A stretch of DNA of 64,000 nucleotides from Acinetobacter kyonggiensis (GTDB lineage: Bacteria; Pseudomonadota; Gammaproteobacteria; Pseudomonadales; Moraxellaceae): NCBI RefSeq assembly GCF_900107285.1, contig NZ_FNPK01000003.1, forward strand, positions 124,001 to 188,000, read 5' to 3'. The translations under genes were made by a program, and so were the position numbers. Below, in pieces: positions 33,963 to 45,879 of the stretch (position 1 is the first letter of the stretch; every line of letters starts with the position of its first letter). The notes beneath the pieces were generated by a model. That model made no database searches. It saw only the letters and a list, made by a program, of their open reading frames with translations, and was not told the DNA's origin.

Positions 33963-36017
33963 ATGATGAAGAAAAACTCAAACAAATACTTAATGCAGAT
34001 GATCTTTATGCCAAACTCGCTATACAAAATTTTGTTTGCTGCACTATTGAGTAGTTCTCTATTGACGGGTTGTCAAATCGTCAGTGTCAAAAATCAAGCC
34101 ATCAACGTAACCATTACCAATGAGCGAGAAAGCATACTCACCCGCAACAAATTAAGTGAAGCCAGTTTAAATGTACTTTCTATGACAGGGCGCGAAGCAA
34201 AAATTTGCGCTGACAAACCAGAACAGTGCATCCAAGAAATACAACAAATCCCTCAAATTCAAGACGAACAAATCCTTTCTACAGCAAGTGAAGTTTTTTT
34301 AGCCAAAGCTTTGGCATATGAAAAATCAAGTGATTGTAAAGTCAGCATTTTAACCAGTCATAAATCTGAAGAAAAACAAAAATTACAACAAACTGCTTAT
34401 GAAAAATGCTTAGATCAACAACTCTATATGTTGGATAAAAGTATCCGCTATAGTTATGCATACATGTTCAAAACCAAACGTGGCCCGCAAGACCGTATTT
34501 TTGATAACAGACAAGTACAAATTCGAGATTTTTATAATTTAGCCATCGCAAAATTGGTTTCAGCTTATGCGCTACGTTACAAACCAACAGAAGTAGAACA
34601 CCAAATTAAAGTTGGCAAAAGTATCTACAACATTAACTTTGACCATTATCCTCAATTAAAAGAACAAAAAATTGAACAAATGCTCTCTAGCTATAATCTC
34701 AATTTTTCTGGTTTACGTTCCATTAACCGCCGTGATGGTTTTGGTTCGGAATTTGTCGTTGTTTTACCCCAAGTTAAAAATGATATTGGCGAAGCTAAAA
34801 GCAAGTATATTATTGATCCGATCAATTTTAGTTATAAAAATGGCATCAATCCGAATATCCACCAAGCCCGTTATTTAGCTGCGACGCTCACCGTAGAACC
34901 TAAGTCAGCCAGCAGTATTGAGGATATTTTAAATAATCCCGAGTTTGAATTAAAAGCCTTTGATCCTTACAAATATGACAATGTTGTGATGGCGGGTAAA
35001 ACCTATCCACTTGCAGCCAACTTCTCTACCCCTTATGGTTTATGGCTTGCACAAAACAATTTAGGTAAAGCTGCATATTTAACTTTGATTGATCGTGATG
35101 ATCATCTCACCATGCCGCATTTATATATGCTGGAACCCTATAATCCGAATAAAAAGGTCATCGTATTGGTTCATGGTCTCGCCAGTAGCCCAGAAGCATG
35201 GATACGTCTCACCAATGACATTATGGGCGACCCTGTGCTACGTGAACACTTCCAAGTATGGCAAGTGTTCTACTCCACCAATATGCCCATTATTGAAAGC
35301 CGCTTCCAGATTTATGCCTTGCTTAACCAAACTTTTTCTCAAGTTGATCCTAAAGCTGCGGCAAAAAAAGATGCTGTTCTTGTTGGACATAGCATGGGTG
35401 GAATTATTGCCCGACTATTGGTCAGTGACGCCAACCTCACTCAAAAAGCATTATCCATGATGAGCAATCGTCAATTGAATAAATATAAAAATATCCCGAT
35501 TGTATCGCAGCGTTTAATTCTTAAAGATATTCCTAACTTTAATCGCGCAATTTTCCTTGCTTCACCACATAAAGGAACCGAATTTGCTGACCGATGGTTT
35601 ACCAAAGCAGCACGTAAAGTCATTCGTTTACCTGGTGCATTCCTTTCTGCCATAGGCGATACATTACAGAGCCAAGATTTAGACTTTAAAGATTTATTAA
35701 AACAGATTGATCACGGGCTAATTCAAAATGGGCCAAGCGATTTAAGCTATCAATCAAAATTTATGGAGCTCACCAAAGACGTTAGCCCACGTAAAGGTTT
35801 AGCCTTCCATTCAATTATTGGTAATGCGACCAAGAGTGATGATCTTAATCTGATTACCGATGATGTCGTGCCGTATAAAAGCGCACACTTAGATGGTGCT
35901 GTTTCTGAAAAGATCATCAACGGTGGGCATTCTATTCAGGAAACACCAGAAGCCGTTTTAGAATTACGTCGTATTCTACGATTACATCTCACACAGCTAG
36001 GTGTGTATAAACCTTAG
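33963..36017 (+). CDS. Alpha/beta-hydrolase (lipase/PGAP1-like) lipoprotein
   Basis: A 684-residue exported protein. The signal peptide ends in the lipobox LLTGC; from the first ATG the n-region is long, so the ATG at 34008 is an equally good start. The N-terminal 350 residues match nothing I can name. The C-terminal half is an alpha/beta hydrolase: oxyanion-hole strand VLVHGLASSPEAW, nucleophile Ser477 in GHSMGG, and catalytic His656 in NGGHSIQETPE. Proteins of this design hydrolyse lipids or esters; the substrate is unknown. An enzyme facing the periplasm or outer membrane is likely. Confidence 0.8.
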   Translation: MMKKNSNKYLMQMIFMPNSLYKILFAALLSSSLLTGCQIVSVKNQAINVTITNERESILTRNKLSEASLNVLSMTGREAKICADKPEQCIQEIQQIPQIQDEQILSTASEVFLAKALAYEKSSDCKVSILTSHKSEEKQKLQQTAYEKCLDQQLYMLDKSIRYSYAYMFKTKRGPQDRIFDNRQVQIRDFYNLAIAKLVSAYALRYKPTEVEHQIKVGKSIYNINFDHYPQLKEQKIEQMLSSYNLNFSGLRSINRRDGFGSEFVVVLPQVKNDIGEAKSKYIIDPINFSYKNGINPNIHQARYLAATLTVEPKSASSIEDILNNPEFELKAFDPYKYDNVVMAGKTYPLAANFSTPYGLWLAQNNLGKAAYLTLIDRDDHLTMPHLYMLEPYNPNKKVIVLVHGLASSPEAWIRLTNDIMGDPVLREHFQVWQVFYSTNMPIIESRFQIYALLNQTFSQVDPKAAAKKDAVLVGHSMGGIIARLLVSDANLTQKALSMMSNRQLNKYKNIPIVSQRLILKDIPNFNRAIFLASPHKGTEFADRWFTKAARKVIRLPGAFLSAIGDTLQSQDLDFKDLLKQIDHGLIQNGPSDLSYQSKFMELTKDVSPRKGLAFHSIIGNATKSDDLNLITDDVVPYKSAHLDGAVSEKIINGGHSIQETPEAVLELRRILRLHLTQLGVYKP

Positions 36018-36054
36018 TGAGCAAATTCAAGCGCTAAGCATGGCTGAATTGTCA

Positions 36055-36082
36055 CCACATAACGGCTTAATCCGTTGTGTGG
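36055..36082 (+). terminator. Hairpin after the hydrolase gene
   Basis: CCACATAACGG / CCGTTGTGTGG 11-base stem with one G-T pair and a 6-base loop, 37 bases past the stop. No T run follows, so it may slow decay of the mRNA rather than stop transcription. Confidence 0.5.
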
Positions 36083-36111
36083 TCATGGAAATAAAATCAA
36101 TCAGAATAATG

Positions 36112-36455
36112 TTATCCCCAAGTAGAAAGCTCCTTCCGTTCAAGTACAAACGATAATTCACTATAAGGCACTTTACATTCTGAGCTGTAAAAGAGCAGTA
36201 CCTGATTTAACCATAATTTACATTTAATGCCTAAATACAAGATCCAGACGAGCAGGATCTTCATTCTTTTTATACAAGAAGCGCGTTATTTTTAAAAACC
36301 AAATAAGGATGCACATTAACTCCAGAATTGGAATCGCATAACCAAGAAATCAATAAAATAACCATCAGAATCGCACATATATTGGCAATCTAAAGACTTT
36401 TAAAACGCTTACTGAACCATATCGAAAGCGCAGAAATAGCACTGCTTATTTTCAT
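36112..36455 (-). pseudogene. Decayed membrane-protein gene
   Basis: On the minus strand an ATG at 36453-36455 opens a reading frame (MKISSAISALSIWF...) broken by TAG at 36390-36392. Past it the same frame gives the hydrophobic ICAILMVILLISW. After one shift a second frame continues with YAIPILELMCILIWFLKITR and KKNEDPARLDLVFRH, ending at 36224. A third frame, from an ATG at 36264 to a TAA at 36112, gives 50 codons including VLLFYSSECKVPYSELSF. The switches between coding-like frames suggest one disrupted small membrane protein of unknown family. The call is from reading by eye. Confidence 0.45.
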
Positions 36456-36484
36456 AAATGGCTATTCTTTCAGGAAAAATTCAA

Positions 36485-36597
36485 TTATATTAGACTTCTT
36501 CCACAAGTCATTTTTTGATCAATGCACATAATTTATAAAGCCGACATTAAAAAATAAACTTTAGGAAAGATTAGATTCATAGCTGTGAAATACTGAC
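36485..36597 (+). repeat. Degenerate copy of a short repeated element (copy A)
   Basis: Read on the plus strand this stretch aligns with the reverse complement of 42798-42911, including the shared run GTCNTTTTTTGATCAA and, in translation, the ten residues DFFHKSFFDQ. Identity by eye is about two thirds, with one inserted base. Copy A has in-frame stops, so it is a relic; copy B is still an ORF. The two lie in opposite orientation about 6.3 kb apart. Confidence 0.6.
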
Positions 36598-36738
36598 ATA
36601 AAAGCATAAAAATTGAATTTTAAACATTTTTTGATTTATGCAAGCTATTTATTATATTGATAAGTATATTGTTTTTTAATATAGAATATTTAATAAAAAA
36701 ATGAACAATCATTTTTTACATGAATAGTGAGAAAATTC

Positions 36739-38010
36739 ATGAAATTAAAAGGGTCTAGTGCATTAAATAGAATGCAAATTGAACAAGTTGCTTCTAGGGG
36801 ATTAAACTCTGTTCATTTTTCTAAAACACTCGAGCGGATTTACCAAGAACAATATAAAAATGAAGCAGCTTATGAATTTAGATTTCGTGGATTAATTATA
36901 TTAATTTTGTACTTATTTCTCAGTTTAGGTATTTATCAAACTATTTCTGACCATGACATAATGCAGCAGTGGCTCACCTATTATGCATGGGTCGGAATTA
37001 TTGTCATCACCGCTTGGATCTTATCTTTTTTTAAAAAATTTAACCAATATTTCGACTATTATACCGGTTTTGGTTCCATGGTCGCGATTGCCATCTCCTT
37101 TATCATTATCACCAATATTGGCGCAGATCCCAATAATACCGCACAGAATAATGTGCTATTTCATACTGCCATGATGTATGCCGTGGTGATTACTTACAGT
37201 TTTGTCGGTATGCGATTTTACACGGCAGTTATTGTATGTTGGATGGGTGGTCTGATTGCGATTTTCATTTCAATCTGGTCAAATCAAGATATTGGCTGGA
37301 CCTTATTAAATAGAACCTATACTTTTTATAGCTTTTTAGGCATGGCTTTAACCTATGCCATTGACCGCCAGCATCGGGAAAATTATTTACAAAACTGTAT
37401 TATTGAATTGAACCAAATTGAATTAACCCAACAAGCTCAACAATTGGCATTATTATCACAATTAGACTCACTCACAGGTTTGGCTAATCGACGTTATTTA
37501 AACGAGGTTCTCGATAAAGAGTGGCGCTATGCGCTAAGACATCAAACACCATTAAGTATATTAATGGTCGATATCGACTTTTTTAAAAACTACAATGATC
37601 ATCTTGGGCATATCGCAGGTGATCAATGTCTGCAATTGATTGCAGATTCAATACACTCGATTACTGCACGAAGCAATGATCTAGCTGCACGCTATGGTGG
37701 AGAAGAATTTTTACTCGTTTTTCCAATGACAGACCAACAGCAAGCCGAAGCACTAACCATACGCCTTTTACAACTCATTGAGGCAGCTGCTATTCCCCAC
37801 CCATCCAGTCCTATTTCTGAACACATTACCATTAGTGTAGGAATCTCGACCGTAGTACCGCAAGCGGATCATCAAATCTCGGAACTGATTAACTTAGCGG
37901 ATCGTGCATTGTATTTCGCCAAAAATGAAGGACGAAACCGTTATCATATTGCTGAACCCTATGCCGAAACCACCTCTACAGACACAACAAATAAGCACAT
38001 TTACCTTTAG
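36739..38010 (+). CDS. Membrane-bound diguanylate cyclase (GGDEF domain)
   Basis: This enzyme would make the second messenger cyclic di-GMP. The 423-residue protein has about six membrane helices (residues 45-215), a short linker with a predicted coiled coil (IIELNQIELTQQAQQLALLS), and a C-terminal GGDEF domain. The active-site motif is GGEEF at 320-324, which is catalytically competent in known cyclases. An inhibitory site RxxD is present at Arg311-Asp314, so product feedback is likely. I start at the ATG at 36739; GTG at 36727 is in frame. The sensor domain's signal is unknown. Confidence 0.9.
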   Translation: MKLKGSSALNRMQIEQVASRGLNSVHFSKTLERIYQEQYKNEAAYEFRFRGLIILILYLFLSLGIYQTISDHDIMQQWLTYYAWVGIIVITAWILSFFKKFNQYFDYYTGFGSMVAIAISFIIITNIGADPNNTAQNNVLFHTAMMYAVVITYSFVGMRFYTAVIVCWMGGLIAIFISIWSNQDIGWTLLNRTYTFYSFLGMALTYAIDRQHRENYLQNCIIELNQIELTQQAQQLALLSQLDSLTGLANRRYLNEVLDKEWRYALRHQTPLSILMVDIDFFKNYNDHLGHIAGDQCLQLIADSIHSITARSNDLAARYGGEEFLLVFPMTDQQQAEALTIRLLQLIEAAAIPHPSSPISEHITISVGISTVVPQADHQISELINLADRALYFAKNEGRNRYHIAEPYAETTSTDTTNKHIYL

Positions 38011-38460
38011 AGCTTAGCAAGTCAACATTTTATCGTAAGATTAATCTTACTATATGCAAAGGAAATTTAGAGTCAATCTTAAGTAATCTGAAGCAAGGAT
38101 CACCTCCTCATCCATCTTTCCCCTATGCACAGGTTGCAGAATTTGTTCAACATATACGGCAGAAAAAATAATAATTTCTTCCAAGTGTTCCTTTACCCAA
38201 AAAGCTATCAATTTACTCGAATCCATTCAAAATGATACACAGTCATTTTATTTTCCCTGCACTTCGAAGTGATAGAATGTGCTCTGATATGTCATAAACA
38301 GTTTTGATCAAGCCGATGTATGAACAAAAAGCTAAAAAAAATGGCATAGGTTTTGATCCAAAACGGCTTTATGCTAAATCTTCATAAACACTTACATGTT
38401 TATATCTATTTTTATATCAAGTAAGCTTTTTAACTTGGCTCCCTAAAATTGCGTTAGAAA
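38011..38460. other. Intergenic region with integrase relic
   Basis: 450 bases between the diguanylate cyclase and PepSY genes. It holds a 16-base perfect palindrome GTAAGATTAATCTTAC (38035-38050), the integrase relic (38061-38272), and a 23-codon open stretch from an ATG at 38316 (YEQKAKKNGIGFDPKRLYAK) that reads like coding sequence but that I cannot name. Confidence 0.5.
38061..38272 (+). pseudogene. Relic of a P4-type tyrosine recombinase (integrase)
   Basis: Frame one (38061-38171) reads NLESILSNLKQGSPPHPSF and then PYAQVAEFVQHIRQKK before a stop. This matches the linker of P4-family integrases, which typically has HHPALPYAEIPAFMAELR. Only about 15 bases later, VPLPK (38187-38201) and, after a one-base shift, KAINLLESIQNDTQSFYFP (38201-38272) match the region near the C-terminus that reads VPLS.QALELLE...FPS. 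About 100 residues in between, with the first catalytic residues, are deleted. The family match is from memory of the motif. Confidence 0.65.
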
Positions 38461-39816
38461 ATGAATTTGAACTTTAATTTTTGGCAAATATTTTTCCGTT
38501 TAATACATGTATATGCTGGAATTTTTATTGCTCCATTTATTTTTATTGCTGCACTAACTGGCCTTTTTTATGCTGCCACGCCTCAAATTGAACAGTTGAT
38601 TTACAGTGAAATACTATATGTAGATCAAAACCATTCAAAAATTCAGCCTCTTAGTCAACAAATTGAAATAGCTAAACAATCTTTATCATCCTCTGCACAC
38701 ATTACAGAAGTCCGTCCATCGGCAGCGCCTAACCAAACGACTCGGGTTATTTTCTCAGACCCGAAGCTAAAGCAACAAAATGAAGCTGTCTTTGTAGATC
38801 CCTATACGCTTGAAATCAAAGGTCAATTCGCTGTGTATGGTACAAGTGGCTTATTGCCATTTCGAACAACACTTGACCACCTTCATCGAGATTTATTATT
38901 AGGAAATTGGGGACGCTTTTATAGTGAACTAGCAGCAAGTTGGTTAGCCATTTTAATCTTTACAGGTTTATATCAATGGATTAAACGTCGTAAAATATTA
39001 AAAGATAAGAAAACCAATCACAACAGACTCATTCAAAAACATAGCACGATCGGGTTATTTTTATTTCCCCTGCTGCTCTTTATTGCGATTACTGGTCTAA
39101 CATGGTCTGAATGGGCGGGAGAAAATATTCGTATTCTTCGGCAATCACTGAGTTGGCAAACACCTACATTAGTAACATCGCTCAAAGCAGAGAGTATGCC
39201 AGCAGTTATAATGCATCATGGCGATCATGTCATGACTCCTAACAATCCTACTGTGCATATTTCCTCTGAAGATTTCGATACTGCTTTAGCAATTGCACGG
39301 CAGCATGGTATCGATGCGTCTCAAATACAAATCAAGCCTCCTTCAGATGTGAACCAAGTATGGACTGTTTCAGAAATTCAGCGGCGCTGGCCGACTCAGG
39401 CAGACAGTATTGCCATTGATGTGCAACAGCATCAAGTCTTAGATCAGCTTTATTTCCAAGATTATCCATTGATTGCCAAACTGACACGTTGGGGAGTTGA
39501 TGCACATATCGGTATTTTATTTGGCTGGATAAACCAACTCGTTTTAATCATTTATGCACTTGCGCTATGCAGTATGATTATTTATGCATATTTGGCTTGG
39601 TACAAACGGACTGATTTAAAACAAACAACCATTCAACTCGTCGGTCAAACGATAATGATTTGGAAGCAGGCTGCAATTAAACAAAAAATAATACTATTTT
39701 TTGTTCTGAGCATCATGGGAATTCTTTTGCCCATATTTGGGATCAGTGTGCTTATTGCTCTAGTTGTCATCATCATTAAGCATGTAACAGCACAAGAAAA
39801 TATTAATCGGACTTAG
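38461..39816 (+). CDS. PepSY-associated transmembrane protein
   Basis: A 451-residue inner-membrane protein of the PepSY_TM family: an opening helix FRLIHVYAGIFIAPFIFIAA, two more paired helices with conserved histidines (DHLHRDLLLGNWGRFYSELA), and C-terminal helices. Such proteins often lie beside TonB-dependent siderophore receptors and in some species (FpvG type) help reduce ferric iron in the periplasm. Here it is convergent with an IutA-like receptor, so a role in releasing iron from the imported siderophore is a fair inference. No heme or flavin site is proven from sequence. Confidence 0.85.
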   Translation: MNLNFNFWQIFFRLIHVYAGIFIAPFIFIAALTGLFYAATPQIEQLIYSEILYVDQNHSKIQPLSQQIEIAKQSLSSSAHITEVRPSAAPNQTTRVIFSDPKLKQQNEAVFVDPYTLEIKGQFAVYGTSGLLPFRTTLDHLHRDLLLGNWGRFYSELAASWLAILIFTGLYQWIKRRKILKDKKTNHNRLIQKHSTIGLFLFPLLLFIAITGLTWSEWAGENIRILRQSLSWQTPTLVTSLKAESMPAVIMHHGDHVMTPNNPTVHISSEDFDTALAIARQHGIDASQIQIKPPSDVNQVWTVSEIQRRWPTQADSIAIDVQQHQVLDQLYFQDYPLIAKLTRWGVDAHIGILFGWINQLVLIIYALALCSMIIYAYLAWYKRTDLKQTTIQLVGQTIMIWKQAAIKQKIILFFVLSIMGILLPIFGISVLIALVVIIIKHVTAQENINRT

Positions 39817-39959
39817 TTAAAGCGCTATTGTATGGTGACCAGTCGAAAGTACGGTAAGTTTCAGATGCAGGTTTATTCATTTTAAAATTATATGACTATT
39901 AGAATTATATGACTGAACTAATCTTCAATGATGGGTTTGTACAACAAAACAGTTCTATC

Positions 39960-39992
39960 TCAAAATATCCGCAAAATTTACGGATATTTTGA
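39960..39992. terminator. Bidirectional terminator between PepSY and TonB-receptor genes
   Basis: TCAAAATATCCG / CGGATATTTTGA perfect 12-base inverted repeat with a 9-base loop between convergent genes. It is AT-rich and T-rich on both sides. Confidence 0.65.
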
Positions 39993-40001
39993 TAGAAAAG
40001 G

Positions 40002-42191
40002 TTAATAATTAATCGTATAACTTAAGGCAAAAGTACGACCTTCAGCAGGAATTGCTAACAATGTATTTGCATTGGTTACTGCTGCTTGTTGAGCAAATAC
40101 TGTTTTATATTGATTTCCCCAAACATTATAAACACCGAAATCTACACGCCCTTTCGCCATAGGGAAATGTGCCAATACATCCATTGTGGTATAACCTTTA
40201 ATCTCTGCCGCGCTATTACTATCTGTTAAGCCTGCTGCTTTTAATGCTTGGTCATCTTGATAGGCTTTATCTGTTCCTTTAATGGCTTGCATTTGTGCAC
40301 GGACACCATAGCCGTCATCATTATTCCATTCAGCAAACAGTGTGCCTTTTATTGGAGAAATAGCAAAGGCATTTAATTCATGCCAATTATTTGCTCCATT
40401 TTTATATTGCCCGCGGGTATAACCCAAAGTGCCGCCTACTTTATAGTTTTCCATAAATGGATAACTAATATTGGCTTCTGCACCATAAACACGTTGATCG
40501 GTATCGACAATATTCACTGATCGGTCTGAATTGAACTGTACCACTTTATCAGAAGTATTATAAAAACCTGTTAAGCCCAGATTTAGACCATCATCTTGAT
40601 TTAAGCGCCAACCCAATTCATAGCTATTGACCGTAATCGGTGCAATGCCTGAAGTCGTTAATGTATAAGCAGCAACATCCCGTAGCACACGCTGTACATC
40701 GGGATAGCTATAACCTTGTGAGAAATTCGCATAAATTTGTTGAGCATCGGTCAGTTTATAGACTGCACCTAAATTAAATAAGAATTTATCAGAATCTGTC
40801 GAATCGGCAGCCATTAAAGTATAAGGTTTACGCGCAGTTAAATAACTGTCTGTGTCTGCCTGAACATATTGATAACGTACTCCAGCCTGAACATTTAAGC
40901 GCTCTGTTAAAGCATAGTCCCCTTGTAAAAATGTCCCAATATTTTGGATTTGTGTGTCTGGCCCTGAACCTTGTGTCTCCCCCGTTGCGGTATAGACCAA
41001 ACCATTATTAGTCGGTTTATAGAATTCGGCCCATTGATGGTCTTTTTCCCAATCGTAATCTAGACCATAAGTGAGTTTTAGATCCCGTTCTGCAACTTTA
41101 AGATCAGATTGAACCGTAGAACGAATACCCGCATAGTCCACATTAGATTGGCTTTGTTTTACATCAACACCATCAGCCGAATAACCATAAGGTACAAAGC
41201 GGGATTTTTCATTGCGGTAATACGCTTCGACATTCAAAATTTGCCCAAGGAAATTTTGGTTTTGATACTGAGTATTAAACGCATAGCGCTCTGTAAATGG
41301 CTGATTATCTAAACTCCAGCCTTTAATCGCTTTATAAGAGGGTTGGGTTTTTGTTTTTAAATAAGAATAGTCAGGCCCATATTCTGTATCTTGTTCATCT
41401 TTATAATATTGAGCGCCAAAACTTAAGCTTTGATGGTCAGTTAAATTAAAGTTTAGACGACCATTTACATCGATGGTATCGGTATCCATAGTGCTGCCTT
41501 GCCACGGACTTAATGAAATACGATCACCATTGCCATCAAACTGAGAACCACGGCTGGTATAGTCTAAACCTAAAAAGCCATCCACTTTGTCATGACTAAA
41601 TGAAGCGGTTTGTCCAACCTGATACGCTAAGCTATCACCACGGAAATTATCAGCCGATGTCATACCTAGCTTGGTTTGAAAAGCAACAGGTTCTGATTTA
41701 TCCGCACGTTTAGTAATAATATTAATAATCCCGCCTGTTGCCCCTGAACCATAAATACTGGTTGCACCAGAAACGACTTCAATATGATCAATCATATTCG
41801 GGCTAATACTATTCAACTGACGCGCTACATCACGAGAACCCGTTTGCGATACCCCATCAATCATCACCAGCACATTACGCCCACGCATAGTTTGACCGTA
41901 ATTACTGGTTGTTCCACTACTTGGTGCTAAAGGCGGTACAAGTTGTGCCAAAACATCTGCGACCTTGCGACCTGCCCCAGCCTGTTGAGCAATTTCCTCA
42001 CCACGAATGGTTTGAACTGTTCCTGCCACTTCCGCAATACTTTTAGGTGTTCGCGTTGCTGTTACTACAATTGGAGCTAACTGCGTATCTGCTTTCTTTG
42101 TTTGCAATGATGGTGCTGTAACTTCATCTGCATACAAGTGTGTACAAATGGCTGTGGTCAGCAGGCAAAGACTAAAGTGAGACAGACGCAT
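40002..42191 (-). CDS. TonB-dependent siderophore receptor, IutA-like
   Basis: An outer-membrane receptor of 729 residues. I start at the ATG at 42191, with AGGA 6 bases upstream, which gives a normal signal peptide ending YA/DE; an ATG 18 bases further out is in frame. A TonB box-like PIVVTATRT lies near residue 40, then a plug domain (YGQTMRGRNVLVMIDGV, GSGATGGIINIITK), then a 22-strand barrel ending in the aromatic pattern FALSYTINY. Plug and barrel motifs resemble the aerobactin receptor IutA, suggesting a hydroxamate ferric siderophore. A Fur box lies just upstream. A decayed synthetase fragment precedes it. Confidence 0.9.
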   Translation of the reverse strand: MRLSHFSLCLLTTAICTHLYADEVTAPSLQTKKADTQLAPIVVTATRTPKSIAEVAGTVQTIRGEEIAQQAGAGRKVADVLAQLVPPLAPSSGTTSNYGQTMRGRNVLVMIDGVSQTGSRDVARQLNSISPNMIDHIEVVSGATSIYGSGATGGIINIITKRADKSEPVAFQTKLGMTSADNFRGDSLAYQVGQTASFSHDKVDGFLGLDYTSRGSQFDGNGDRISLSPWQGSTMDTDTIDVNGRLNFNLTDHQSLSFGAQYYKDEQDTEYGPDYSYLKTKTQPSYKAIKGWSLDNQPFTERYAFNTQYQNQNFLGQILNVEAYYRNEKSRFVPYGYSADGVDVKQSQSNVDYAGIRSTVQSDLKVAERDLKLTYGLDYDWEKDHQWAEFYKPTNNGLVYTATGETQGSGPDTQIQNIGTFLQGDYALTERLNVQAGVRYQYVQADTDSYLTARKPYTLMAADSTDSDKFLFNLGAVYKLTDAQQIYANFSQGYSYPDVQRVLRDVAAYTLTTSGIAPITVNSYELGWRLNQDDGLNLGLTGFYNTSDKVVQFNSDRSVNIVDTDQRVYGAEANISYPFMENYKVGGTLGYTRGQYKNGANNWHELNAFAISPIKGTLFAEWNNDDGYGVRAQMQAIKGTDKAYQDDQALKAAGLTDSNSAAEIKGYTTMDVLAHFPMAKGRVDFGVYNVWGNQYKTVFAQQAAVTNANTLLAIPAEGRTFALSYTINY

Positions 42192-42227
42192 TATTATTCC
42201 TTGAATCATAAGTATTAATATTAGCGA

Positions 42228-42248
42228 AAATAATAATCATTATTATTT
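42228..42248 (-). promoter_or_regulatory. Fur box upstream of the siderophore receptor
   Basis: AATAATAAT-C-ATTATTATT is a perfect 9-1-9 inverted repeat (10-1-10 with the flanking A/T). It agrees with the Fur consensus arms GATAATGAT/ATCATTATC at 14 of 18 positions. It lies 37 bases upstream of the start codon, so Fur would block transcription when iron is plentiful. Confidence 0.8.
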
Positions 42249-42297
42249 ACATTGTAAAACTTTTGTTTCAATTTTAATGATTTTTAAGCATGCTGGA

Positions 42298-42555
42298 TTA
42301 AATGGCTGTTTTTTCTAACATTTGATTTTTCTGTGCTTCAAATACCATACCAAACTTATGATAAAACTCCATAAGCGGTAAAATCATAATCTCTAAGAAA
42401 TACTTAAACCACTGTAAAGCAACATCCGACTGATTTTGACTTGTTTATACAATATCTTTGGCTGAACTCAGTTCTGCACCGCGTCCTTCTCTATTAAACA
42501 TGGTGTTAGCTTTAGATATTGCCCAACCATTCAGTTCAGTTTTATTGGCTAAGTA
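42298..42555 (-). pseudogene. Fragment of an IucA/IucC-type (NIS) siderophore synthetase
   Basis: The minus strand has 86 codons in one frame with a single internal TAA at 42445-42447. The second half, ALQWFKYFLEIMILPLMEF followed by YHKFGMVFEAQKNQML, resembles the conserved region of NIS synthetases (family pattern: two prolines, then a hydrophobic run, then HG...EAH.QN). The first half, NKTELNGWAISKANTMF, would precede it. Both ends are lost. It lies 106 bases upstream of the receptor start and on the same strand, as in aerobactin loci. The family match is from memory of the motif. Confidence 0.55.
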
Positions 42556-42740
42556 TTAGATAACTTGCATAAATCAAAAAAATTCAATATTCGATTATTT
42601 GAAATTTGCACTGCCTCATTTTGAGTACTTCAATTTTTATGCCTTTGCGTAGGCATTATCTCTACTTTTGAAAGGTCAAAATAAGGATTTCAAAATATAT
42701 TTTGAGTTCGCAAGAAAAACCTTTTGTTTCCCATACATGA

Positions 42741-42787
42741 CATCCTGAGCCAGTTTTAAGGCACTGCTTTAAAACTGGCTCAGGATG
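42741..42787. repeat. Perfect 19-bp inverted repeat
   Basis: CATCCTGAGCCAGTTTTAA and TTAAAACTGGCTCAGGATG are exact inverted repeats with a 9-base loop. TTTCCC on the left and GGGAAA on the right can extend the stem beyond an 8-9 base bulge. The stop codon of the small minus-strand ORF falls inside the right arm. No strong T run follows on either strand. Confidence 0.75.
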
Positions 42788-42992
42788 GGAAATGTGCGGC
42801 ATTCATGCCACACTCATCAACCCAATACTTCCTAGAATTTGTTTTTAAATTTTGGCTTTCAAACGATTTGTGTTGATCAAAAAACGACTTATGAAAGAAG
42901 TCCATTATAGCCTCAAGCTCAAGCGTCATTTTATTTATCACACCAGCAGACAAAACTGCCTTTTTTAAAGCAAATGTATTATTTTCACCCAT
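42780..42992 (-). CDS. Small ORF of unknown function
   Basis: 70 residues with no family I can name. AGGA lies 4 bases before the ATG, a usable ribosome site. The middle (AIMDFFHKSFFDQ) is matched by a degenerate copy at 36485-36597, so this sequence belongs to a repeated element. The C-terminus ends DECGMNAAHFPS. It may be a real small gene, or the surviving part of a mobile element's gene. Confidence 0.4.
   Translation of the reverse strand: MGENNTFALKKAVLSAGVINKMTLELEAIMDFFHKSFFDQHKSFESQNLKTNSRKYWVDECGMNAAHFPS
42798..42911 (-). repeat. Copy B of the short repeated element
   Basis: The coding counterpart of copy A at 36485-36597, in inverted orientation. Together the two copies bracket the diguanylate cyclase, integrase relic, PepSY gene, receptor and synthetase relic. 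Confidence 0.6.
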
Positions 42993-43227
42993 CTATTCCT
43001 ATTTCCCTTTCTGATTCATTAGATTTTGTTAAAATTCCCCAGTAACGGGCTTTGTTACTTTGAACTTCTGATACAGATCACACATTAGCATTTAAAATTA
43101 GGTCTACCAAAAGGTACACTTATGTTTCGGATTCTTTTGATTTACATGAAACACCATAGGTCAAAATAGGACAGCGCATCAAATGCAACTTACTGAAAAA
43201 ACGTATATATTTAAAGGGCTTTAATAG

Positions 43228-45879
43228 ATGAATGCTGATAAAACAACACCCGACCTGTCCTTACTAACACCTATGATGCAGCAGTATTTAACGATAAAAA
43301 TGCAGCATCCACACTCACTCATGTTTTATCGCATGGGTGACTTTTATGAATTATTTTTTGACGATGCACATAAGGCAGCAAAATTACTTGGGATCACCCT
43401 CACCCATCGTGGTAAAGCCAATGGCGAACCTATTCCTATGGCAGGCGTTCCCTATCATGCTGCTGAAGGTTATTTAGCGCGACTAGTAAAAAAAGGGGAA
43501 ACAGTTGTCATTTGTGAACAGCTTGGCGAAGGCGAGAGCGCAGGCACTCGCAGTAAGGCACCTATGGAACGTGGCGTTGTCCGAATTATTACTCCCGGCA
43601 CGCTGACCGATGATGCACTCTTAAACAGTCATCAATCGTCTAATTTAGTCGCGCTTTGTGTTCAACAAAATCAAATTGGGATTGCACTCCTTGATTTAAG
43701 TGCGGGTATTTTTAAAGTTCAACAGCAAAATTTTCAACAAGAACAGCTTGCTATCGAACTATCTCGCTTAATGCCAAGTGAAATTTTGGTTGATGAAGAT
43801 ATTGTCGACCCCAATATTATTGAACAAATAAAAAAACAACTGGACTGCCCTGTTACAAAACGTCCCAATGTTGACTTCAACATCAATAATGCGCAAAAAA
43901 CATTATGTGACCAATTTGCGGTATCTACACTTTCTGGTTTTGGAATTGATCATTTACCGCTTGCCAAAGCCTCTGCGGCAGCGCTCATTCATTATGCCAA
44001 AGAAACACAAAAAACGGCTTTACCGCACATTCGCTCAATTCAGTTAGAACAAAGCAGTGACTTTATTGCACTTGATCCAGTAACGCGTCGTAATCTAGAA
44101 CTGGTCGAACCCTTATTTGAACACGGCACATCACTGTTTCAACTCATTAATGACTGCCAAACAGCGATGGGCAGTCGTTTACTCAGCCGTACCATCATGC
44201 AGCCCTTACGAGACACCAAATTACTGGATGCCCGACTCGATGCCACGGCTTCTGTGCTCAATGGCTATCACGATTCTCCTATTCGCTTAGTACTTAAAGA
44301 CATTAGCGATATTGAACGTGTGCTGAGCCGTGTAGCCCTAGGTAGTGCACGTCCACGTGATTTGGTACAACTGCGTCAAGCCTGCGCACAAATTCCTTTA
44401 CTACGCCATGCGATTCAACCCATTACACAGGCGCATCAATCCAACTTAATTCAGCAATTGGATCATGAATTAGGTGATTTTAATGGTCTACACCAACGCT
44501 TAATGTCAGCCATTGTTGAACACCCACCTGTATTACTTCGTGATGGCAATGTAATTGCAGAAGGTTTTGATAGTGAACTCGATGAACTGCGTAAGATCCG
44601 CGATCATGCAGGTCAATTCCTCATCGACTTAGAAATTCAAGAGCGTCAAAACACAGGCGTTTCAACGCTTAAAATTGGTTACAACCGAGTCAGCGGTTAC
44701 TATATTGAACTGACTCGCGCTCAGGCAGAGCAAGCACCTGAGCATTACATTCGTCGCCAAACTTTAAAAAATGCTGAACGCTATATCACACCAGAATTAA
44801 AATCTTTTGAAGATAAAGTTTTATCCAGTGAATCTCGTGCCCTTGCGCGTGAAAAAATGTTGTTTGAAATTCTGTTGGATGAATTACGTCAAGATATTGG
44901 CAATCTACAAATGATGAGTAGCGCGATTGCACAAATTGATATGTTGGCTAACTTCGCCCATCAAGCACGTTTACGCAATTGGTCTCGCCCTGAATTTAGC
45001 CCTGAAATTGGGGTAAAAATTATTGCGGGTCGACACCCTGTGGTTGAAGCCTTAAGCAAAACTGCCTTTACACCGAATGATACCAGTTTAGACTTCAACC
45101 ACCGCATGGCAATTGTGACTGGACCCAATATGGGTGGTAAATCAACCTTTATGCGCCAAACAGCACTGATTAGTTTATTGGCTTATTGCGGATGTTATGT
45201 TCCTGCCAAATCTGCCATTTTGGGCCCTATCGATCGTGTTTTCACTCGTATTGGTTCTGCCGATGATTTATCTACGGGTAAATCAACCTTTATGGTTGAA
45301 ATGACGGAAACGTCTCAAATTTTGCACCATGCAACCAACCAATCTTTAGTGTTGATGGATGAAGTTGGACGTGGCACCAGTACCTATGATGGCTTATCCT
45401 TAGCATGGGCATGTGTGCTCGACCTCAGTAAGCGGATTAAATGTCTGTGTCTATTTGCCACGCATTATTTTGAACTCACTGAACTTGGCAAAGAATCAGG
45501 CATTGATAACTACCATGTCACAGCCAAAGAATTAAATGGCAATTTAATTTTATTGCACAAAGTTCAGCATGGCCCAGCAAGTCAAAGTCATGGCTTACAA
45601 GTCGCTAAATTAGCGGGTATTCCTGCCAGCGTAATTAAAGAAGCACAAAATCGCTTAAAGATTTTAGAAAAACAGCAACATCTACAATTTAATAAAGCCG
45701 TGCAAAATGACTTGTTCAGTGTCGCGGATGAACCTACTGTTGAAGTCATTGAACGTATTATAGAAGTTGAGAAAGATGTACCCGTACTCAATCTATTAAG
45801 AGCTTTAGATGTCGACAATCTTTCACCACGTGAGGCGCTACAGCAAATATATGCTTTAAAAGATGCTTTAGAAGCATAA
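43228..45879 (+). CDS. mutS: DNA mismatch repair protein MutS
   Basis: MutS recognises mismatches and starts repair. The 883-residue protein has the mismatch-binding motif with Phe and Glu in [16 protein letters not shown] (residues about 32-47), the lever and clamp regions, and the ATPase domain: Walker [10 protein letters not shown] at 631-639, ST.F..EM motif in [16 protein letters not shown] and Walker [17 protein letters not shown]. Length is within the family range of 850-880. It has a terminator-like hairpin after it. Upstream DNA is accessory, so mutS marks the return to core genome. Confidence 0.97.

Follow-up and report, generated by a model that had tools for sequence, protein, structure and literature searches.

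A mosaic of gene fragments beside an intact receptor

The window, a 64,000-nucleotide stretch of the Acinetobacter kyonggiensis genome, contains on its minus strand an intact bfnH-like TonB-dependent receptor gene (40002-42209; 735 aa from the first ATG) and, just upstream, an 86-codon stretch (42298-42555, minus strand) whose reading frame is open apart from a single TAA. The initial annotation regarded this entire stretch as the fragment of one siderophore synthetase with an internal stop. A fragment of an NIS synthetase gene is indeed present on the strand of the receptor (42446-42332), while the remainder of the stretch belongs to other genes, making the whole a mosaic of three genes, each represented by a fragment. 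When the 85-residue piece was compared with 119 Acinetobacter genomes, matches were found in 90, and its two halves proved unrelated to each other: residues 36-81 resemble NIS synthetases of ~600 aa, with genome G069 giving the highest identity (72%, E 1.1e-16), and the hits to residues 3-36 are proteins of another kind, ~350-390 aa long, which many genomes encode, the present one included and frequently in multiple copies. Since the halves are different genes, a single decayed synthetase reading frame with a nonsense codon was ruled out. A contig scan with the 85-aa piece matched one locus, from a goat-colon bacterium (41%), and an NCBIfam search with the fragment returned nothing relevant (one irrelevant match).

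Alignment with G069 and with a gene copy elsewhere in the same genome resolves four successive pieces along the minus strand (42553-42453, 42446-42332, 42343-42297 and 42308-42200). The first (42453-42553) is the remnant of a TIGR03299 (DUF932) phage/plasmid-like gene, which aligns without gaps across 101 columns to another copy in this genome (75% over 32 aa); that copy is intact (L062:2108-3289) and is identified as a TIGR03299 phage/plasmid-like protein, Pfam DUF932, at E 6e-119. The second (42332-42446) corresponds to approximately codons 401-439 of 599 of a bfnA-like NIS synthetase, with 85% ungapped DNA identity over 115 bp to G069 (L063:8581-8695) and a tblastn match of 73% over 45 aa (E 4e-14). 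The third (42297-42343) is a fragment of a bfnL-like GNAT acetyltransferase gene (84% over 50 columns to L063:17798-17847), and the fourth (42200-42308) is a piece of the receptor leader, aligning to L063:18013-18122. The TAA (42447-42445) falls at the join of the DUF932 remnant and the synthetase fragment and is no nonsense mutation. The piece following the stop scores 23.1 bits against Pfam PF06276, the C-terminal NIS domain (E 1.2e-4; cut-off 25.2 bits; positions 2-33 of 161 only), and a profile search with 42298-42555 gave no match to PF04183, the NIS catalytic domain, as befits a remnant rather than a family member. With PF06276 below its cut-off, the synthetase homology of 42446-42332 rests on the 85% DNA identity to the intact G069 gene.

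The neighbouring receptor gene, which matches PF00593 and PF07715, probably starts at 42191 (MRLSHFS). Its product is 91% identical to the receptor standing in line with the G069 cluster and 71.5% identical to A. baumannii BfnH over residues 14-735; full length, plug and beta-barrel domains and BfnH homology place it in the BfnH type, and a score of 370.2 bits against the RhtA equivalog NF052649 (curated score 1100) places it outside that family. Pairwise Nei-Gojobori dN/dS is 0.064 against both G156 and G069 and 0.049 against G157; G156 and G157, which both lack synthetases, give 0.060 when compared with each other. Such low values show constraint averaged over the whole history of the gene, before and after the loss alike. 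Ahead of the receptor lies a Fur-box-like site (42226-42244, plus strand) that agrees at 16 of 19 positions with a Fur consensus and is the best in the window, its score being equalled in 0 of 1271 other 100-bp stretches of the window and in 2 of 2000 shuffles of its own 100-bp stretch. The intact receptor and a Fur-like box, as initially annotated, are both in place. In A. baumannii and in some of the relatives a bfnJ-type PepSY gene stands alongside the receptor; no homologue of it was found beside the receptor in the window, so uptake here may depend on different inner-membrane components. A PepSY protein encoded at 38461-39816 was considered as bfnJ and rejected: the counterpart of bfnJ is a distinct PepSY protein, present in A. 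baumannii and next to the receptor in some related genomes. In one other genome, G048, a second receptor copy that ends after approximately residue 400 (L117, G048:C1:606742-607944) occurs besides the full one.

Type of the lost cluster and probable manner of its loss

The source of the fragments can be read from intact clusters in related genomes. In G069, the genes run in the order NIS1, Lys/Orn N-monooxygenase, MFS exporter, NIS2 (SbnF-like), NIS3 (SbnC-like), FhuF-like 2Fe-2S protein, RraA-like protein, GNAT acetyltransferase and receptor. The best solved relative of NIS1 is IucA, the other two synthetases are nearest to SbnF and SbnC models, and the monooxygenase scores 360.5 bits against PF13434. 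The published table of the A. baumannii baumannoferrin cluster bfnABCDEFGHIJKL, as given in PMC10483418, assigns siderophore biosynthesis to A, a monooxygenase to B, MFS to C, an AcsC-like protein to D, IucA/IucC to E, a 2Fe-2S protein to F, RraA to G, the receptor to H, PepSY to J and an acetyltransferase to L, with I and K as further positions. A stretch without annotated features in A. baumannii NZ_CP104448.1 (L171) reproduces this order, including small ORFs at positions I and K. Identities of its products to those of G069 are 51% (A), 64% (B), 55% (C), 63% (D), 51% (E), 35% (F), 52% (G) and 60% (L); H is 71.5% identical to the window receptor, and J is 54% identical to the PepSY protein beside the receptor of G036. 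NZ_CP104448.1 (4.09 Mb), like NZ_CP077849.1 and NZ_CP064203.1, is an A. baumannii sequence in the range of 3.7-4.1 Mb that PLSDB lists as a plasmid and that looks chromosome-like by size.

G069 thus carries a bfn-type cluster, with the order A-B-C-D-E-F-G followed by the acetyltransferase and the receptor, and the agreement of this order and of the identities with the A. baumannii locus indicates that the lost cluster was of the baumannoferrin type, with bfnL placed before bfnH. In the A. baumannii cluster as published L stands last, whereas in the intact relatives it lies between bfnG and bfnH; in the window, A and L survive as fragments and H alone is intact. The lost siderophore would accordingly be of the baumannoferrin type, and presumably a hydroxamate, given that the intact clusters include a Lys/Orn-monooxygenase gene. 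A hydroxamate siderophore had originally been proposed, with aerobactin named for a growth test; the hydroxamate part is retained as probable and the aerobactin part is replaced. The aerobactin system, iucABCD-iutA, comprises NIS synthetases, an N-monooxygenase and an acetyltransferase, all of which it has in common with the bfn-type cluster, and the NIS1 of G069 is nearest to IucA among solved proteins. However, the intact relatives have three NIS synthetases in the bfn order, and this cluster type rules out aerobactin as the lost siderophore. Going by the description in PMC13320182, the acbABCD/actBCAD genes for acinetoferrin in A. haemolyticus and A. junii are another siderophore system from this genus, with transport genes of its own.

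Compared with G069, ~9.1 kb are absent at the main junction, comprising the six middle genes in their entirety together with parts of the NIS1 and acetyltransferase genes. The junction is a 12-nt overlap of bfnA-like and bfnL-like sequence (42332-42343, minus strand) that coincides with a 14-bp repeat: in G069 the two junction sites are 9,114 bp apart and each carries the identical 14-mer, the longest exact repeat between bfnA and bfnL in that genome, with no other of at least 12 bp. A repeat with bfnA of at least 14 arises in only 11 of 500 codon shuffles of bfnL, which makes this length uncommon in its own right; the weight of this evidence would lie in the break falling exactly on the repeat. 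Across ten intact clusters examined, the two junction 12-mers are identical at all 12 positions in G069 and G119, share 11 in G065, G011, G035 and G161, 10 in G051, and 8 in G078, G007 and G141. A second junction, between the acetyltransferase fragment and the receptor leader, is again a 12-nt overlap of the alignments (42297-42308, minus strand), with ~165 bp absent relative to G069. Overlaps of 12 nt at both junctions would be the expected product of deletion between short direct repeats.

It is very improbable that the pieces represent chance similarity or an assembly error. They are short (47-115 bp), but the largest extends over 115 bp at 85% identity without gaps, the cluster-derived pieces keep the order and polarity of the cluster beside its cognate receptor, the scar sits within a 257-kb contig, and the break falls at the longest repeat shared by bfnA and bfnL. 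The explanation that we hold with considerable confidence is that the locus is the scar of a collapsed baumannoferrin-type cluster beside a kept receptor, in a bacterium that would make no such siderophore, would express the receptor under iron limitation and would use the ferri-siderophore of others. The fragments, their order and polarity, and the junctions can be read directly in the window. As to the order of events, a cluster bfnA-B-C-D-E-F-G-L would once have stood directly upstream of the bfnH-like receptor; short direct repeats in bfnA and bfnL, ~9.1 kb apart, would have allowed deletion of the cluster interior; a smaller second deletion would have taken the end of bfnL; and a join to the phage/plasmid-like gene remnant and a MITE-like repeat would have severed bfnA from its 5' part, leaving behind the receptor and its Fur-type box.

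Synthetases, receptors and the insertion site across the genus

The genome under study is a draft assembly of 73 contigs, listed as 100% complete. Profile searches of this draft gave no matches to PF04183 and none to the NRPS condensation domain PF00668, and PF06276, which is positive in 55 of 119 Acinetobacter genomes, has none in this one. Against the N-monooxygenase profile PF13434 there were four partial matches of 20.7-33.5 bits (cut-off 21.3 bits), all flagged, one jointly with its neighbours, in a search to which 12 of 14 control genomes were also positive. None was retained as a siderophore N-monooxygenase: FMO-like or related oxidoreductase models fit three of them better, and tryptophan-halogenase-like or FAD-binding models the fourth. 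Across the 73 contigs, then, no NIS- or NRPS-type siderophore biosynthesis genes were found, and the search for intact iuc-like genes elsewhere likewise yielded no IucA/IucC match in the draft. Neither of the two results that would tell against a loss of production, namely a stretch without IucA/IucC homology or an intact synthesis cluster for the same siderophore elsewhere, was obtained.

The same questions were put to 175 Acinetobacter genomes, one per species, of which 60 have a receptor match at E <=1e-250 and 77 are positive for PF04183. A receptor of at least 85% identity occurs in 21 of the 175, the present genome included. Seven of these 21 have a bfn-type cluster beside the receptor (G069, G161, G065, G145, G051, G007 and G141; in G145 the first cluster genes are inferred from PF04183 matches alone), three have IucA/IucC genes elsewhere in the genome (G153, G166 and G114), and eleven have no IucA/IucC match (the present genome, G000, with G156, G157, G036, G058, G073, G118, G033, G022, G142 and G048). 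Remnants beside the receptor were found in three of the eleven: the present genome, G157 (bfnL codons 23-195) and G058 (the end of bfnE with bfnF, G and L). Since the endpoints differ in all three, different losses are indicated. In the other eight, no remnants were found beside the receptor within the stretches examined, which for G022 reach just ~0.9 kb upstream, as far as its contig extends.

On a 31-receptor tree, 12 rows bear the no-synthetase label (G129, at 82%, among them), and this label requires 8 changes, at least 4 of them forced by strongly supported branches; gains and losses are indistinguishable and 9 of 28 inner branches are open, so that these changes do not count losses with certainty. 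As few changes arose in 77 of 500 shuffles, and the label is thus not clearly clustered. The tree labels G104, G084 and G010 as 'cluster adjacent' from coordinates alone and puts G070 and G131, with NIS genes of another type within ~10 kb, in a third group.

The frequency of receptor-only genomes would also suit a receptor kept for another ligand, a different xenosiderophore, beside a scar that is neutral debris without social meaning. Receptors have apparently been exchanged in G007 and G145, where the window-type receptor lies at a bfn-type cluster beside small fragments of another receptor, as such a reading would allow; yet even these two remain at a bfn-type cluster, and in G069, G161, G065, G051 and G141 the receptor stands in line with the intact cluster, which makes a change of ligand unlikely. 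The locus in G007 and G145 (L068, L147) has the appearance of a receptor replacement, the window-type receptor (88%) being in the opposite orientation and the other receptor fragmented.

Receptor and scar lie together at a site that differs among species. In G073, G058 and G036, an alpha/beta-type gene (counterpart in the window 33963-36017, labelled by eye) directly precedes mutS and the receptors are elsewhere, while in the window the two genes are separated by a 7.2-kb insert that contains the receptor and the scar along with one GGDEF and one PepSY gene. Beyond the insert's outer edge lies the native mutS leader (42915-43227), whose counterpart in G157 aligns to window 42915-43335 with 75% identity across 433 columns. 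A MITE-like repeat of ~350 bp (42555-42902, minus strand), with 94% copies at two other places in the genome, forms the right edge of the insert; 70-82% copies occur at eight loci compared in other genomes, and a shorter, degenerate and inverted copy (36487-36654) lies at the left edge. A 70-aa ORF (42780-42992) starts in the native mutS leader, ends within the MITE-like repeat and has no NCBIfam or PHROG matches.

Comparison of the cargo upstream of mutS (window 36018-43227; L163, L164, L168 and L170) reveals an intact bfn-type cluster of the window's polarity in G141, separated from mutS by a copper-type ATPase gene; a PepSY-like ORF and a different TonB receptor in G157; an adhesin-like ORF in G156; and an integrase-bearing element with DUF932 and YqaJ-like genes in G069. 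The space before mutS looks like an insertion hotspot whose cargo varies by species. The G069 element points away from mutS, like the DUF932 remnant of the window, which is plausibly left over from an integrase-type element of this kind.

The mutS gene itself is 96% identical to that of G156, 94% to G073, 93% to G058 and G036, 86% to G157 and G051, and 83% to G069 and G141. G156 comes first by both genes, but G157 and G069, which rank directly after it in receptor identity, trail well behind in mutS (receptor/mutS identities 93%/96% for G156, 91%/83% for G069 and 89%/93% for G058). Because receptor similarity tracks mutS only partly, transfer of the locus between species is likely, and the receptor locus looks horizontally mobile on this comparison. 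An A. variabilis plasmid typed as mobilizable (NZ_CP083659.1, L172) carries an 87% receptor, a small ORF, and PepSY and DUF3325 genes, with no cluster genes within the 26 kb examined; this combination constitutes an uptake-only cassette.

These data bear on when and where the cluster was lost. The receptor locus could have come in by horizontal transfer as a ready-made uptake unit, scar included, in which case the lineage itself was never a producer, and we give this not far short of an even chance. It accords with the alpha/beta-type gene adjoining mutS, and receptors elsewhere, in three of the four nearest genomes by mutS among the eight tested (G073, G058 and G036), with the 7.2-kb insert at that very site in the window, with a receptor similarity that does not follow mutS throughout, and with the mobilizable plasmid bearing receptor and PepSY gene and no cluster genes. 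On the other hand, G156 is nearest in both mutS and receptor, as under vertical descent, and G141 carries an intact cluster upstream of mutS with matching polarity, which agrees with the cluster having resided at this site for longer. Arrival as a scar is compatible with the same anatomy as collapse in place and differs from it in when and where the deletion happened; the deletion may be older than the arrival of the locus in this lineage. The original proposal that the strain had lost production and kept import is thus well supported as a genomic state, but not supported as simple vertical reductive evolution, the receptor locus having apparently moved between species.

Probable uptake without production in Acinetobacter

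The collapse of a baumannoferrin-type cluster beside its receptor is an event of a known kind. In marine Vibrio, as the work of Cordero et al. is recounted in PMC5583256, the synthesis cluster was lost and the receptor kept, as here, with non-producers arising within producer clades; the present case concerns a between-species sample of Acinetobacter, a bfn-type cluster, and a scar that reveals the manner of loss. According to the same source, Pseudomonas non-producers make use of heterologous pyoverdines, and PMC10483418 describes eight A. baumannii isolates without the bfn cluster, for which xenosiderophore piracy is speculated. Among the papers listed in searches of an open-access library we found no description of a bfn scar or of receptor-only Acinetobacter species, and the readable scar is what is added here to a kind of event already known. 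The receptor type is of further interest because BfnH, according to PMC7595644, has looked promising as a vaccine antigen.

Uptake without production is well supported, at the level of gene content, as the state of this genome, which appears to be one of several such states in the genus; the cell itself would live on the siderophore of its neighbours. Tentatively, and with the expectation that it is rather more likely to fail than to hold, the bfnH-type receptor in Acinetobacter might be seen as a mobile uptake unit whose adjoining clusters collapse repeatedly, with varied endpoints and in one case primed by a bfnA/bfnL repeat, and which spreads between species, on plasmids as well, giving rise to many non-producers that draw on a siderophore shared across the genus. 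Siderophore 'cheating' is often deduced from the presence or absence of genes, whereas here the loss can be read from a scar that still includes its probable priming repeat, and other remnants of similar loss are present in two related species. The scar and the remnants in these relatives therefore make the dependence of receptor-only species on nearby producers testable across a single genus, along with the frequency at which a public-good pathway collapses to uptake only.
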